Of a stretch of 64,000 bases of DNA, positions 393 through 52,453 are shown piece by piece. The DNA is from Ulvibacter antarcticus. GTDB lineage: Bacteria; Bacteroidota; Bacteroidia; Flavobacteriales; Flavobacteriaceae. Positions within the stretch are counted from its first letter, which is position 1, and each line of letters begins with the position of its first letter. Both the position numbers and the translations under genes were made by a program. Under the pieces are notes generated by a model, which saw only the letters and a program-made list of their open reading frames with translations, did not search any database and was not told the DNA's origin. Location: positions 372,001-436,000 of the forward strand of contig NZ_REFC01000013.1 of the NCBI RefSeq assembly GCF_003688405.1. The letters run 5' to 3'.

Positions 393-430
393 ACTGAACA
401 CTGCCCACTGCCTACTGAACACTATTACTC
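393..430. repeat. Intergenic heptamer array (ACTNNNN)5
   Basis: On the + strand ACT recurs at 393, 400, 407, 414 and 421, exactly every 7 bp, with variable bases between (GAAC, GCCC, GCCT, GAAC, ATT). It fills the gap between the two permease genes. Similar arrays lie at 1611-1637 and 51049-51117. Confidence 0.75.
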
Positions 431-9056: not shown

Positions 9057-9064
9057 GAAGCCTA

Positions 9065-9488
9065 AAAACCATATAACTATCGTTATGGGTTTCCTTTGGC
9101 GGAGAGTAAGGGATTACAAAAATGTGATCCTAAAAGGATATCCAGTACAAGCATAGAAACCCAACACCCCGCTTAAAAAAAGCGTGACTAGATTTTTTAT
9201 TTTTTAAAAACACCTTCAAGCTGAAATAGCTTGGGCGTTTTTCAAAAACAAAAAACCCATAACTATCGTTATGGGTTTCCTTTTGCGGAGAGTAAGGGAT
9301 TACAAAAAAATGTGATCCTAAAAGGATATCCTGTACAAGCATAGAAACCCAAGGTCACGCTAAAAAAAGCGTGACTAGATTTTTTATTTTTTAAAAACAC
9401 CTTCAAGCTGAAATAGCTTGAGCGTTTTCCAAAAACAAAAAACCCATAACTATCGTTATGGGTTTCCTTTTGCGGAGAGTAAGGGATT
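9065..9488 (-). repeat. Tandem 187-bp repeats made of tRNA-Ser 3' tail plus terminator
   Basis: Two full units (about 9065-9250 and 9251-9437) lead into a third partial one that is part of the genuine tRNA-Ser gene. Each carries the 15-base tRNA 3' tail complement (9101-9115, 9287-9301, 9474-9488), the terminator hairpin AACCCATAAC-TATC-GTTATGGGTT and a shared spacer with a second hairpin (TCACGC ... GCGTGA, 9355-9374). The spacing between terminators is 186-187 bp. The copy farthest from the tRNA is the most diverged. Open frames crossing this region are repeat artefacts. Confidence 0.85.
9436..9464 (-). terminator. Terminator of tRNA-Ser
   Basis: Perfect 10-bp stem AACCCATAAC (9441-9450) / GTTATGGGTT (9455-9464) with a TATC loop, followed on the minus strand by a T run. 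It is repeated in both tandem units downstream. Confidence 0.85.
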
Positions 9489-9557
9489 CGAACCCCTGGA
9501 GGTGTGACCCTCAACAGTTTTCAAGACTGCCGCATTCGACCACTCTGCCAACTCTCC
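9474..9557 (-). tRNA. tRNA-Ser(UGA)
   Basis: An 84-nt type II tRNA read on the minus strand, starting GGAGAGTTGGCAGAGTGG. The anticodon loop CTTGAAA gives anticodon TGA. It has a long variable arm, the T-loop GGTTCGAATCC and a 3' end ACTCTCC pairing with GGAGAGT. CCA is not encoded (CGC follows). It stands alone, and its 3' end is the source of the tandem repeats downstream. Confidence 0.96.
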
Positions 9558-35206: not shown

Positions 35207-36718
35207 ATGACAAATAATGCCTACTTATTTTTCTTTCTTATAATATGTCTTTCCGTCAATGCGCAAGTTGGAATTGGAATAGCAAATCCTAAATCTAGTT
35301 TAGATATTGTTGCATCAAATTTCGCAACACCTTCAAATACTGATGGAATATTAATTCCGCGTTTGCAAGCATTACCCGCTATTAATCCAACAGACGCTCA
35401 ACATTCTATGTTGATTTACCTATCAACAGCCTCTGGTACTTATATACCTGGTTTCCACTTTTGGGATAAGAATAAGGGAGTAAGTGGTGAGTGGGTTCCT
35501 ATCTTAAATAAACCAGGCTGGGAGATTGATGGTAATTCTAATACCACAAGCGGTGTTCACTTTTTGGGAACAACAAATGCAGAGGAAGTAGACTTCAAAG
35601 TCAACAACAAATTGATAGGACGATTAACCGAACTTGGACAGTTTGAATTGCAAGCAGATGGTGAATCGGTATTAATAGGTTACGAAGCAGGTGAAAATTA
35701 TGACCCCGCTAATACACTGGCAGATCATAATGTTTATATTGGATACCAAGCAGCAAAACAATCTACTTCGGGTAGAGATAATACTGCGGTAGGCGCGTTC
35801 GTGATGATAGAAAATACAACTGGTAGTTATAACACTGCCCTTGGTTCGGAAGCTTTGCAAACTAATACTATTGGTGAACAAAATACAGCATTAGGAGATG
35901 ATGCACTTAGATATAATACAATCGGTAATGACAATACGGCTGTAGGGCAGGACGCCTTAAAAGTAAATGCAGCTGGACAAAGTAATACTGCTGTTGGAAG
36001 AAAGTCACTTCGCAACAATATTGGTGATAATAATGTAGCATTAGGTAGTTTTGCTGGCGAAAGTATAACTACAGGAAATAATAACAGTGTTTTGGGCTAC
36101 GCTGCAGATGTAGTTGTAGGTACAGAGATTGAGACTGTTATAATAGGAAATGGCGCAAGAGGTGGGGCCAATAGGGTCGTTGCAATTGGAAAAGACGCTA
36201 CAGCGAGTCAAACGAATGCTGTTGCCATTGGTAATAACGCGACCGCAAGTGCAACTAATGCAACTGCGATTGGAAATGGCGCAGTTTCAAATAATGCCAA
36301 TGAAATGGTATTGGGAAATAACTCCGTTACAAGGGTAATTACAAGTGGGAGCGTACGGGCAAATTCATTTATATCAAATACAACGACCTATCCTGATTAT
36401 GTGTTTGAAGATTTTTACACTGGTTCTTCGGAAATAAATTCAGATTATAAATTTACTGATTTGGAAAATGCTGAAAAGTTTGTGAAAGCTAATGGTCATC
36501 TTCCAGGAGTTAAATCCTATGAAGCGGTTGCGAACAATAACTTTGAACTCAATATCACTGAGACATCTGTTAAAAATCTAGAAAAAATTGAAGAGCAGTT
36601 TCTATATATTGTGACCCTAAACGAAAAAATAAAAGATCAGGAAAACTCCATCGAAGACTTAAAACAAGAAGTTGAGGCGTTAAAAGCAATCGTTCAGAAA
36701 TTAATTTCAGATAAATAA
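35207..36718 (+). CDS. Secreted VGIG-type fibre-like protein: YadA-head repeats plus coiled coil
   Basis: A 503-residue protein. The signal peptide ends at NAQ and is followed by VGIGIANPKSSLDIVASN, GILIPRLQALP and GFHFWDKNKG, the shared N-terminal module. Residues about 180-300 carry 21-22-residue repeats (DNTAVGAFVM, YNTALGSEAL, QNTALGDDAL, DNTAVGQDAL, SNTAVGRKSL). Then come 14-residue YadA-head repeats (ATASQTNAVAIGNN, ATASATNATAIGNG). The C-terminus has DYVFEDFYTGSSEIN ... NAEKFVKANGHLPGVKSYE, a module common in Bacteroidota fibre-like proteins, and ends in a heptad coiled coil (about 450-503). It is likely a trimeric extracellular fibre. No membrane anchor is visible. Confidence 0.82.
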   Translation: MTNNAYLFFFLIICLSVNAQVGIGIANPKSSLDIVASNFATPSNTDGILIPRLQALPAINPTDAQHSMLIYLSTASGTYIPGFHFWDKNKGVSGEWVPILNKPGWEIDGNSNTTSGVHFLGTTNAEEVDFKVNNKLIGRLTELGQFELQADGESVLIGYEAGENYDPANTLADHNVYIGYQAAKQSTSGRDNTAVGAFVMIENTTGSYNTALGSEALQTNTIGEQNTALGDDALRYNTIGNDNTAVGQDALKVNAAGQSNTAVGRKSLRNNIGDNNVALGSFAGESITTGNNNSVLGYAADVVVGTEIETVIIGNGARGGANRVVAIGKDATASQTNAVAIGNNATASATNATAIGNGAVSNNANEMVLGNNSVTRVITSGSVRANSFISNTTTYPDYVFEDFYTGSSEINSDYKFTDLENAEKFVKANGHLPGVKSYEAVANNNFELNITETSVKNLEKIEEQFLYIVTLNEKIKDQENSIEDLKQEVEALKAIVQKLISDK

Positions 36719-49629: not shown

Positions 49630-50937
49630 TTGAGATTTTCTAAAAAACTTAGCCATAAACTCGATGATGCGATCAAAGTGAAAATTCTCACTTGGGCGCA
49701 GCAATTTCACGAAGTTGTCTGGTTAGATTCTAACGATCATAATCAGACGCACAGCCAATTCAAGGCTATTTTAGCTGTGGACGCTTTTACAGCTATAAAA
49801 ACGGATGCTCATACTGCATTCGATAAATTGAACGAATATCAACAAAAGACGAAAGATTGGCTTTTTGGCTATCTTACCTATGATGTTAAAAATGATGTTG
49901 AAAACCTGAGTTCTAAGAATTATGACGGACTTGATTTTCCGGATTTATATTTTTTTCAGCCTAAGAAGGTTTTTTTATTTTCTGAAACCAACGTGACCCT
50001 ACATTATCTAAATATGGTAGATGATGAATTGGAGGAGGATTGGCAGGAGATTTTAGATACGGTTATTTCTGAAGCGGATACAAATAGTTTGGATCATCCC
50101 GTAAAAATTAGCCTACGAACTTCGAAAGACTCCTATTTTCAGAAAGTAAATGAAATGTTACGTCATATAGATCGCGGAGATATTTATGAAGCCAATTTCT
50201 GTCAGGAGTTCTTTTCTGAAAACACTAAAATTGATCCCTTAGCTTCGTTTATACATCTTAATGCGATTTCAAAACCACCTTTTGCCACTTTCTTAAAATT
50301 TGAAGAGCATTATGCGCTTTCTGCTTCGCCAGAACGTTACCTTCAGAAAACAGGAAGCAATGTTGTTTCACAGCCAATAAAAGGAACAGCAAAGCGAATG
50401 ATAGATCCTTCCGAAGATAAAAAAATGATATCACAATTGATGATGGATCAAAAAGAGCGAAGTGAAAATATTATGATCACGGATCTGGTTCGAAATGACC
50501 TTTCAAAAATTGCAGAAAAGGGGAGTGTACAGGTGGAAGAACTTTGTGGTATCTATACATTCGAACAAGTGCATCAAATGATTTCGACAGTGAGATGTAC
50601 GGTTTCTTCGGAAAAAACTTCGGTTGAGATTTTAAAAAGCACATTTCCGATGGGAAGTATGACAGGTGCTCCTAAAATTTCGGCCATGAAAATTATTGAG
50701 AAATTGGAAGATGCAAAACGCGGACTTTACAGTGGTGCAATCGGTTATTTTCTACCTAATGGAGATTTCGATTTTAATGTGGTAATTAGAAGCATATTGT
50801 ACAACGCCAGCCGGAATTATGTAAGCTTTTCTGTAGGAGGAGCGATTACTGCAGCTTCCATTCCCGAGCGAGAATATGAAGAATGCCTGTTAAAAGCAAA
50901 AGCAATGCGTGAAGTAGTGGAAGGGACTGCTTCTTAG
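49630..50937 (+). CDS. pabB: Chorismate-binding enzyme, aminodeoxychorismate synthase component I-like
   Basis: A 435-residue protein with a TTG start (49630); no upstream in-frame ATG exists and no internal Met occurs before the conserved region. The chorismate-binding domain fills the C-terminal two thirds: RGDIYEANFCQEF, SPERYLQKTGSNVVSQPIKGTAKR, VRNDLSKIAEKGSVQVEEL, STVRCTVS, FPMGSMTGAPKISAMKIIEKLE, RGLYSGAIGYF. PIKGT favours PabB/TrpE type activity over isochorismate synthase. With a glutaminase partner it makes the p-aminobenzoate precursor of folate. No pabA or pabC lies beside it. It is followed by a heptamer array and tilS. Confidence 0.88.
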   Translation: MRFSKKLSHKLDDAIKVKILTWAQQFHEVVWLDSNDHNQTHSQFKAILAVDAFTAIKTDAHTAFDKLNEYQQKTKDWLFGYLTYDVKNDVENLSSKNYDGLDFPDLYFFQPKKVFLFSETNVTLHYLNMVDDELEEDWQEILDTVISEADTNSLDHPVKISLRTSKDSYFQKVNEMLRHIDRGDIYEANFCQEFFSENTKIDPLASFIHLNAISKPPFATFLKFEEHYALSASPERYLQKTGSNVVSQPIKGTAKRMIDPSEDKKMISQLMMDQKERSENIMITDLVRNDLSKIAEKGSVQVEELCGIYTFEQVHQMISTVRCTVSSEKTSVEILKSTFPMGSMTGAPKISAMKIIEKLEDAKRGLYSGAIGYFLPNGDFDFNVVIRSILYNASRNYVSFSVGGAITAASIPEREYEECLLKAKAMREVVEGTAS

Positions 50938-51048
50938 GATTGAGTTTAAATCCATTTCACTTTTAAATTTAAATAAAGCTTCTCGATATAATTTCCAATT
51001 TCCTTCACAGTCAATTTGAAATCGCTCGAAGTGACAAAGTGTATTTTT

Positions 51049-51117
51049 ACTATTTACTATTTACTATTTACTATTAACTATCAACCAGCACTCATTACTC
51101 AATACTCATTGCTAATA
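51049..51117. repeat. Intergenic heptamer array (ACTNNNN)10
   Basis: ACT (once each ACC and GCT) begins at 51049, 51056, 51063, 51070, 51077, 51084, 51090, 51097, 51104 and 51111: ten units at 7-bp steps with one 6-bp step. It ends 25 bp before the tilS ATG. The first four units are identical (ACTATTT or nearly so), the later ones degenerate. Confidence 0.85.
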
Positions 51118-51142: not shown

Positions 51143-52453
51143 ATGATCAAAAAGCTAGAAAAACATATTAGCGAACAACTGTCTTTTTTACAAGGTAAGA
51201 AGCTACTTATTGCTTGTAGTGGCGGTCTTGACAGCGTGGTACTTAGTTATTTACTGAGACAATTAAAATTTGAAATTGGCCTGGCACATTGTAACTTTTC
51301 GCTACGCGGAAAGGAAAGCGATCAGGATGAAGAATTTGTAGTGGAATTGGCAGATAGTTATTCAGTTGCTGTTTATACCGAAACTTTCGACACTAAGAAG
51401 TTTGCAAAGGAGCATAAGTTATCGACACAAATGGCGGCTCGTCAGTTGAGATATCATTGGTTTGAAGAAATTAGGCAGGACTTTACTTACGATTATATTG
51501 TCACTGGACATCATGCCGATGATGATCTTGAAACATTTTTAATCAATCTTTCTCGGGGTACCGGCCTCAAAGGTCTTACGGGAATTCAGGAAATAAACGA
51601 GTTGGTGGTGAGACCTATATTGCCTTTTACACGTGCCGAAATCTTGAATTTTGCAAAGGAAAAGAATTTGTATTGGAGAGAAGATAGCAGTAATAAAAAA
51701 GCAGATTACCTTCGGAATGTCTTACGTCTGAATGTGTTACCTCCTTTTAAGGAAGCTGCTCCGGGAGTGATTGCAAGTCTTCAGAAAACACAAAAACATC
51801 TGAAGGATAGTTATAGTTTAATAGAAGATTACTTGTCCTTGGTCTATACGCTTGTAGTGCAAGAAATCCCTGAAGGTTATACGATCAATATTGATAAACT
51901 AAAGGAATTGCCAAATACAAATGCTTTATTGTACGAAATAACTTCACCATTCGGATTTACCGATTTCAAGGCTGTTTCAGAATTGTTGGAATCACAGAGT
52001 GGAAAACAGGTTTTTTCAGAAACTCACAGACTCTTAAAGGACAGAAATGTGCTCATTCTGACAGAAATTTCAGAAAAAAAGGAAGAAAAAGAATTTTATA
52101 TAAAAAAAAACCAAATAAAAATAACGAAACCTTTTCAAATGGAGCTTAAATCTATCGACAAGATAGGGAATATTACCAGCAGTACGATCTACGTGGATAA
52201 TGATAAAATAGACTATCCTCTTGTAGTGAGAAAGTGGCAGGAAGGCGATGTATTCTTCCCCTTTGGAATGAAGGGAAAAAAGAAATTGAGTAAGTTTTTT
52301 AAAGATGAAAAGTTATCTTTGGTTCGCAAAGAAAAAATTTGGGTCTTAACTAGCAACAATCAAATTGTTTGGGTTGTTGGATATCGACCGGATGATCGAT
52401 TTAAAGTTGACGATAAAACAAAAAATATTTTAAAAGTAACCAGAACAACGTAA
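51143..52453 (+). CDS. tilS: tRNA(Ile)-lysidine synthase
   Basis: A 436-residue protein. The PP-loop SGGLDS (26-31) binds ATP. LAHCNFSLRGKESDQDEEFV, TGHHADDDLETFLINLSRGTGLKGLTGI and the RPILPFTR region are TilS signatures. The C-terminal domain (about 370-436) contains WQEGDVFFPFGMKGKKKLSKFFKDEKL. It adds lysine to the wobble cytidine of tRNA-Ile(CAU) so that it reads AUA, and is essential. It is followed after 7 bp by the DsbD gene, so the two may be co-transcribed. Confidence 0.95.
   Translation: MIKKLEKHISEQLSFLQGKKLLIACSGGLDSVVLSYLLRQLKFEIGLAHCNFSLRGKESDQDEEFVVELADSYSVAVYTETFDTKKFAKEHKLSTQMAARQLRYHWFEEIRQDFTYDYIVTGHHADDDLETFLINLSRGTGLKGLTGIQEINELVVRPILPFTRAEILNFAKEKNLYWREDSSNKKADYLRNVLRLNVLPPFKEAAPGVIASLQKTQKHLKDSYSLIEDYLSLVYTLVVQEIPEGYTINIDKLKELPNTNALLYEITSPFGFTDFKAVSELLESQSGKQVFSETHRLLKDRNVLILTEISEKKEEKEFYIKKNQIKITKPFQMELKSIDKIGNITSSTIYVDNDKIDYPLVVRKWQEGDVFFPFGMKGKKKLSKFFKDEKLSLVRKEKIWVLTSNNQIVWVVGYRPDDRFKVDDKTKNILKVTRTT

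Follow-up and report, generated by a model that had tools for sequence, protein, structure and literature searches.

Heptad arrays with an ACT core flank genes in Ulvibacter antarcticus and in many other bacteria and some phages

The array of ACT heptads that precedes tilS in Ulvibacter antarcticus is one member of a class of arrays that flank genes and are widespread, occurring in many bacteria and in some phages. The arrays of this class have a 7-bp period, a fixed core, a place at the gene edge with a preferred polarity, and a patchy presence in orthologous spacers, and their core changes more slowly than the rest of the unit. They are a further variety of the heptamer repeats that are known from Xanthomonas, Nostoc and Beggiatoaceae. 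The array before tilS lies in a stretch of 64,000 nucleotides (contig NZ_REFC01000013.1, positions 372,001 to 436,000), here called the window, and all positions given below without a contig are those of the window.

The array occupies positions 51049-51117 of the forward strand and is seen by direct reading, by TRF and by its self-match at lag 7. Its ten units are three times ACTATTT, followed by ACTATTA, ACTATCA, ACCAGC, ACTCATT, ACTCAAT, ACTCATT and GCTAATA. An earlier note made from the sequence had described ten ACT units with a single 6-bp step, and direct reading agrees with this, though ACT itself is present in eight of the ten units, with ACC in one and GCT in one. The lone 6-bp unit is ACCAGC at 51084-51089. 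At lag 7 the best stretch of 56 positions contains 47 self-matches, whereas 60 shuffles of the whole window that preserved dinucleotides reached 33 at most. TRF splits the array in two (51046-51081 and 51090-51110). The longest exact chain of ACT has five units and was equalled in a shuffle; the evidence for the array is therefore the overall 7-bp match and not the ACT count alone. The units contain no G-runs on either strand, and this one-armed array folds at the level of shuffled sequences (z = 0.05). Rfam 15 covariance models gave no match up to E = 1 between 49400 and 52600.

The ACT strand runs into tilS (51143-52453, forward strand), which encodes the tRNA lysidine(34) synthetase and matched NCBIfam models TIGR02432 and TIGR02433 above their cut-offs. 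Its ATG lies 25 bp past the end of the last unit. Upstream lies a pabB-like gene (49630-50937, forward strand), for which the best NCBIfam match was TIGR00553 with 326 bits, slightly below the cut-off of 328.4, and 112 bp separate its stop codon from the first unit. The first ACT is adjoined by a T-rich border, TATTTTT (51042-51048, forward strand), and T-runs were most frequent immediately 5' of the first ACT among 55 arrays of the U. antarcticus genome. In its general form the border resembles the flavobacterial -7 box, which has the consensus TAnnTTTG (PMC9723704), and any promoter role would be putative. A promoter start-site model for the arrays was considered, as TAnnTTT occurs at most 16 bp 5' of 19 of the 55 arrays and the window has a near match; it was dropped, since T-rich flanks make such matches weak. 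Between the pabB-like gene and the border, the forward strand carries TCNCTCGAAGTGACA (51022-51036), a REP-like palindrome that is dispersed over the genome in 29 copies, versus none for the reversed control, and that stands directly 5' of several U. antarcticus arrays. The other recurring end of this REP-like repeat, CTTCTCGATA (50979-50988, forward strand), also adjoins other arrays. Another array of ACT heptads in the window has five ACTNNNN units, ACTGAACACTGCCCACTGCCTACTGAACACT (393-423, forward strand), and its 3' end is 5 bp short of the end of ORF 429-1535 on the reverse strand. The orthologous tilS spacers of same-genus relatives hold no array and are therefore uninformative on how the array evolved.

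Pattern searches and fetched stretches were used to survey the genome of U. antarcticus (3.84 Mb in 18 contigs), which contains about 50 arrays of at least four ACTNNNN units; 42 such chains begin after a unit with a first base other than A, and nine further ones after a unit that starts with A but not with AC. When lags from 4 to 15 were compared over 444 kb around arrays, lag 7 gave 35 arrays and the other lags 0-8, except for the multiple 14. In 1.36 Mb that had not been chosen for arrays there were 56 chains of at least five units at lag 7 versus 0-19 at other lags. One or more chains of six or more ACTNNNN units are present in 82 of 149 Flavobacteriaceae genomes, almost every one of which represents a different genus. 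An ACT phase that stays fixed while the filler changes, to which the earlier note had drawn attention, thus recurs throughout the genome and the family. That note had named an array unique to this locus, or a phase that is lost in other arrays, as observations that would speak against it, and the survey found neither.

Over the 55 U. antarcticus arrays the consensus of the unit is ACT[G/A]HHH. The filler is variable but not free, because G is almost absent from two of its positions, with a weight of 0.5/55 at position 2 and 0.2/55 at position 3. The suggestion that only ACT is constrained is therefore not supported. ACT is the commonest core, and others exist, of the types AATCNNN, CATTNNN, CCTA and TTGG. 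Mixed arrays of G016 (C15 and C21), G059 and G041 were seen to have an AATCNNN or CATTNNN core with variable filler. ACT as the sole core was likewise rejected, since permuted triplets are also present in the family: of the 149 genomes ACT was counted in 82, TCA in 68, CTA in 62, TAC in 45, ATC in 43 and CAT in 34, counts that are interdependent because units overlap, and of which those for TCA, CTA and TAC were tallied by hand from control columns. The commonest filler differs from array to array and includes GACC, GAAC, GCTC, ATTC, AACA, GCCC and GTAA. Neighbouring fillers have a median identity of 0.97 over the 55 arrays, and nine of the 55 are strongly mixed. It had been argued that slippage alone would give identical units; the mixed filler is indeed real, but slippage still matters, and the prevalence of homogeneous runs points to slippage in 7-bp steps as part of the turnover of copy number. 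A cluster of arrays elsewhere in U. antarcticus (L081, C1:997000-1015000) contains units of the GCTTACA, GCCTACA, ACTACCA and ACACCCA types, and similar flanks such as TTTTCAACCCCGGCTT suggest that units of this cluster were duplicated.

The arrays of U. antarcticus sit mainly in spacers, as far as a crude calling of ORFs can tell. An ORF lies closer to the 3' end of the ACT strand than to its 5' end in 46 of 54 arrays (46:8, p = 1.4e-7), with median distances of 12 bp and 133 bp respectively. The gene that abuts the 3' end may point either way. In 35 arrays this end faces the stop of a gene read in the opposite direction, at a median of 6 bp, and in 20 it faces a start codon, at a median of 27.5 bp; ORFs were called by length only, so that distances to starts are approximate. 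The array before tilS obeys the same polarity, with 25 bp to the start at its 3' end versus 112 bp at its 5' side. Other genomes have the same polarity in a weaker form (38:19, p = 0.016, a few loci being counted twice). In two separate collections of ladders, only 10 of 122 and 10 of 164 lay within ORFs, and in both the median distance of the ladder ends was 9 bp to stop codons and 26 bp to start codons; divergent gene pairs held ladders somewhat less often. Read away from the gene edge, the tandem 7-bp unit of an arm consists of (C/Y)AGT and three bases poor in C. Heptad arrays also stand beside tRNA genes in an apparent rRNA operon of G142 (L183:900-1960).

Many spacers have two arms, in the order gene, (AGTNNNN)n, centre, (NNNNACT)m, next gene. 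Among them are, in G142, the rpsL-rpsG spacer and several further spacers of the ribosomal-protein operon, L181, L185 and L186. The rpsL-rpsG spacer is about 20-30 bp long in most relatives, and arrays are found there in G142 and G009. In 2.0 Mb of Flavobacteriaceae sequence, both array-bearing and random, AGT-then-ACT versus the reverse order stood at 9:1. The pattern (CAGTNNN)3-N0-30-(ACTGNNN)3 matched at least 117 stretches among 84,980 species genomes, and the phyla among the matches listed include Bacteroidota, Cyanobacteria, Chloroflexota, Acidobacteriota, Planctomycetota, Verrucomicrobiota, Pseudomonadota and others.

Viral contigs contain at least 120 stretches with a CAGT-to-ACTG pair and none with the reverse order ACTG-to-CAGT, a control that was scanned in viral contigs only. 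For AGTT-then-AACT versus its reverse the numbers were 52 and 0; these scans with the AGT side first are partly redundant because of near-identical contigs. Changing the period to 8 bp left three stretches and changing it to 6 bp left none, and letter-reversed, that is permuted, cores gave 18 and 5. Outside the searched sites, 4.85 Mb of fetched loci had outward versus inward pairs of 85:0 for CAGT, 24:1 for AGTT, 21:0 for AAGT and 27:0 for AGTG, counts that are not independent, because array-rich lineages and near-identical contigs contribute to them, and that are still one-sided in direction. The CAGT pairs in these loci occurred at period 7 only, save one at period 6. In some contigs most spacers hold a ladder. 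The contigs L392, L387, L401 and L437, classed as viral in IMG/VR, carry CAGT/ACTG ladders in many spacers; L387 and L437 contain genes that by eye resemble phage head or tail structural genes, and a Pfam search with eight ORFs of L392 and L387 gave almost no matches.

Comparison of related contigs indicates that core and filler change at different rates. Over all alignable pairs (78-98.5% identity) the core differs at 7.1% of positions, the filler at 29.1% and the whole alignments at 16.8%; these pairs overlap, and alignment out of register can inflate the value for the filler. A stricter test was limited to ten non-overlapping pairs and to ungapped arms between matching 20-bp flanks. Here the core had changed at 0 of 108 positions and the filler at 7 of 57 (p = 5e-4), and the filler changes listed all come from the pair L377/L438, where successive units went from ACTGATC to ACTGCTC. 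The test, small and with few arms, thus points to a core that is slower to change than the filler. The expectation that ACT is constrained while the filler drifts is borne out between these related phage contigs.

Intergenic tandem heptanucleotides, called STRR, occur in Calothrix and Anabaena and were described as fixed units; AGT is part of two of three such STRR units. We know of no analysis of the STRR in terms of core plus filler or of polarity. Repeats of Calothrix are mentioned by Rehm et al. (2015; PMC4692102), who reported GGGANTN heptamers in Xanthomonas and GGGGA(C/T)T in Nostoc. These heptamers have conserved and variable positions and are mostly intergenic, and their G-rich strand begins beside an ORF of either direction; in Xanthomonas inverted pairs are frequent, without a preference for the leading or lagging strand, and G-quadruplexes were proposed (PMC4692102). 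The ACT arrays share with them the 7-bp unit, its partial conservation, the location in spacers, the polarity at the gene edge and, with those of Xanthomonas, the inverted pairs and the lack of a leading or lagging preference. They differ from GGGAATC of Xanthomonas and GGGGA(C/T)T of Nostoc in having a (C)AGT core and no G-runs, in that core and filler vary between genomes, in their occurrence in many phyla and in phage contigs, and in that the slower change of the core is seen directly. The G-quadruplex idea is not applicable to the ACT arrays, because their units have no G-runs; no run of three or more G is present in the units before tilS, nor does the genome consensus ACT[G/A]HHH contain one, and the arrays do not belong among the G-quadruplex-forming repeats.

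TAACTGA repeats were described in Beggiatoaceae, Cyanobacteria and five Bacteroidetes (MacGregor, 2015; PMC4679880), where they are intergenic and, in Beggiatoaceae, often stand immediately before start codons. TAACTGA is ACTGATA in another phase, so that the ACTG core is common to both. That report concerns a single fixed heptamer and calls related ones rare, whereas the ACT arrays have variable filler, and their rule also takes in stop-codon edges and inverted pairs. As in the repeats of both reports, the units of the ACT arrays are enriched at 7 bp, lie in spacers, have the 5' end of the G-richer strand by an ORF and consist of a core with a variable rest. In open-licence papers we did not find a description of a core-plus-filler rule with an ACT core, of its breadth, of the one-sided order or of the rate difference between core and filler, and the exact ladder sequences had no literature match there.

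The earlier note had also regarded a protein or RNA binding to every unit of a 7-bp array as unusual. A precedent exists, since omega/ParB of plasmid pSM19035 binds 7-10 contiguous 7-bp repeats with one RHH dimer per unit (PMC9499535). Its parS site, a plasmid centromere, consists of WATCACW heptads in direct or inverted orientation, of which at least four contiguous ones are needed (PMC9499535). The ACT arrays share the contiguous 7-bp units with parS but differ in sequence; units such as ACTATTT and ACTCATT in the array before tilS do not fit WATCACW, and the comparison is an analogy and makes no claim of membership.

The explanation that we tentatively favour, with confidence a little short of even, is that the arrays are gene-flanking heptad arms with turnover of copy number by 7-bp slippage, kept out of coding sequence by selection, and with core and polarity held by sequence-specific recognition. 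A gene edge would carry one arm, which reads ACT[G/A]HHH toward the gene, and a spacer with an arm at each of its two genes would become an inverted ladder of AGT units followed by ACT units. Purifying selection would exclude arrays from coding sequence, so that selection on the genes would set the edges. The candidate recogniser would most likely be a multimeric nucleic-acid-binding factor, acting on DNA or RNA and placing one protomer on each heptad, in the manner of omega/ParB of pSM19035. Recognition is suggested by the fixed core and the polarity, because slippage explains copy number but neither of these. Against it stand the mostly homogeneous arrays, as plain slippage would give, the existence of other cores and the single arm before tilS.

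A purely mutational origin has to be taken seriously, even if we consider it doubtful. Replication slippage in 7-bp steps would then make and erode the arrays, their bias and polarity would stem from polymerase or repair chemistry, and there would be neither factor nor function. This would agree with the near identity of neighbouring fillers, with 7 bp as the commonest gap length in the single pair L377/L438, with the absence of the tilS array in same-genus relatives and the short rpsL-rpsG spacer of most relatives, with the lack of an evident common function among adjoining genes and with the explanation of heptamer excess by Mrazek, as far as it is cited in PMC4679880 and PMC4692102. Slippage, however, leaves unexplained why one core recurs in different arrays, genera and phyla and why the order is at least 120:0, and within the same arm the core is slower than the filler. 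When all contig pairs are pooled, 67 of 426 gaps close to ladders have a length that is a multiple of 7, versus 125 of 1536, which is only a modest enrichment. A preference for one replication strand did not survive testing either: a replication-strand or primase origin, to which a GC-skew trend in U. antarcticus stretches and G142 had pointed, was dropped because a new set drawn from other genomes, judged by the sign of the local skew, split about 10 in favour to 9 against. A stop-codon safety net was also discarded, as by inspection some units contain no stop on either strand.

The remaining alternatives assign the arrays to RNA, to mobile elements or to the start of the downstream gene. Arms that pair in the transcript would form a ladder hairpin with 4-bp rungs and 3x3 internal loops, acting in intercistronic processing, stability or translation control. 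Two-armed ladders do fold in this way in L068 (z = -6.2), L181 (z = -4.4) and L180c (z = -3.3), and fillers pair between the arms in 52% versus 35% after shuffling. We nevertheless find such a hairpin unlikely, since many arrays, including the one before tilS, are single-armed and unstructured, the two-armed L185 folds like its shuffles (z = 0.11), and Rfam 15 assigned no family to the heptad ladders. Moreover, pairing leaves the order unaccounted for: arms arranged as ACTG-then-CAGT could pair just as well, yet the viral contigs contain none. It is highly improbable that a mobile element or a REP/RAYT system produced the arrays. The array before tilS does follow a REP-like palindrome of 29 copies, and orthologous spacers carry arrays patchily, but most arrays do not adjoin the palindrome, and a search of the array-rich U. 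antarcticus genome with Y1_Tnp (PF01797) gave no match. We give equally little credence to a leader element that is promoter-proximal or recruits ribosomes for the downstream gene; TAACTGA directly before start codons of Beggiatoaceae (PMC4679880) and the U. antarcticus arrays that end shortly before an ATG would fit it, but 35 of 55 arrays in that genome face the stop of an opposing gene and not a start.

Returning to heptad arms held by recognition, a broader form of this explanation is conceivable, on which we would commit ourselves less readily. Outward (C)AGT heptads in a 7-bp register with fixed polarity may constitute a gene-edge code across phyla, which a putative widespread factor would read or make. 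The heptamers of Xanthomonas, cyanobacteria and Beggiatoaceae were reported separately, with G-quadruplexes, translation control and slippage offered as causes, and one set of rules unites them: 7-bp register, fixed core, outward polarity and position at the gene edge. This turns them into a testable question, namely which agent reads or produces the CAGT that stands every 7 bp beside genes, from Flavobacteriaceae to Chloroflexota and cyanobacteria.

The window also contains tandem repeats of longer units. At 36179-36276 TRF reported a 42-bp unit in 2.3 copies with 73% match. At 9064-9488 a 187-bp unit is present in 2.3 tandem copies with 94% match and with inverted AACCCATAACTATCGTTATGGGTT, and this repeat adjoins a tRNA-Ser(TGA) gene at 9472-9557.
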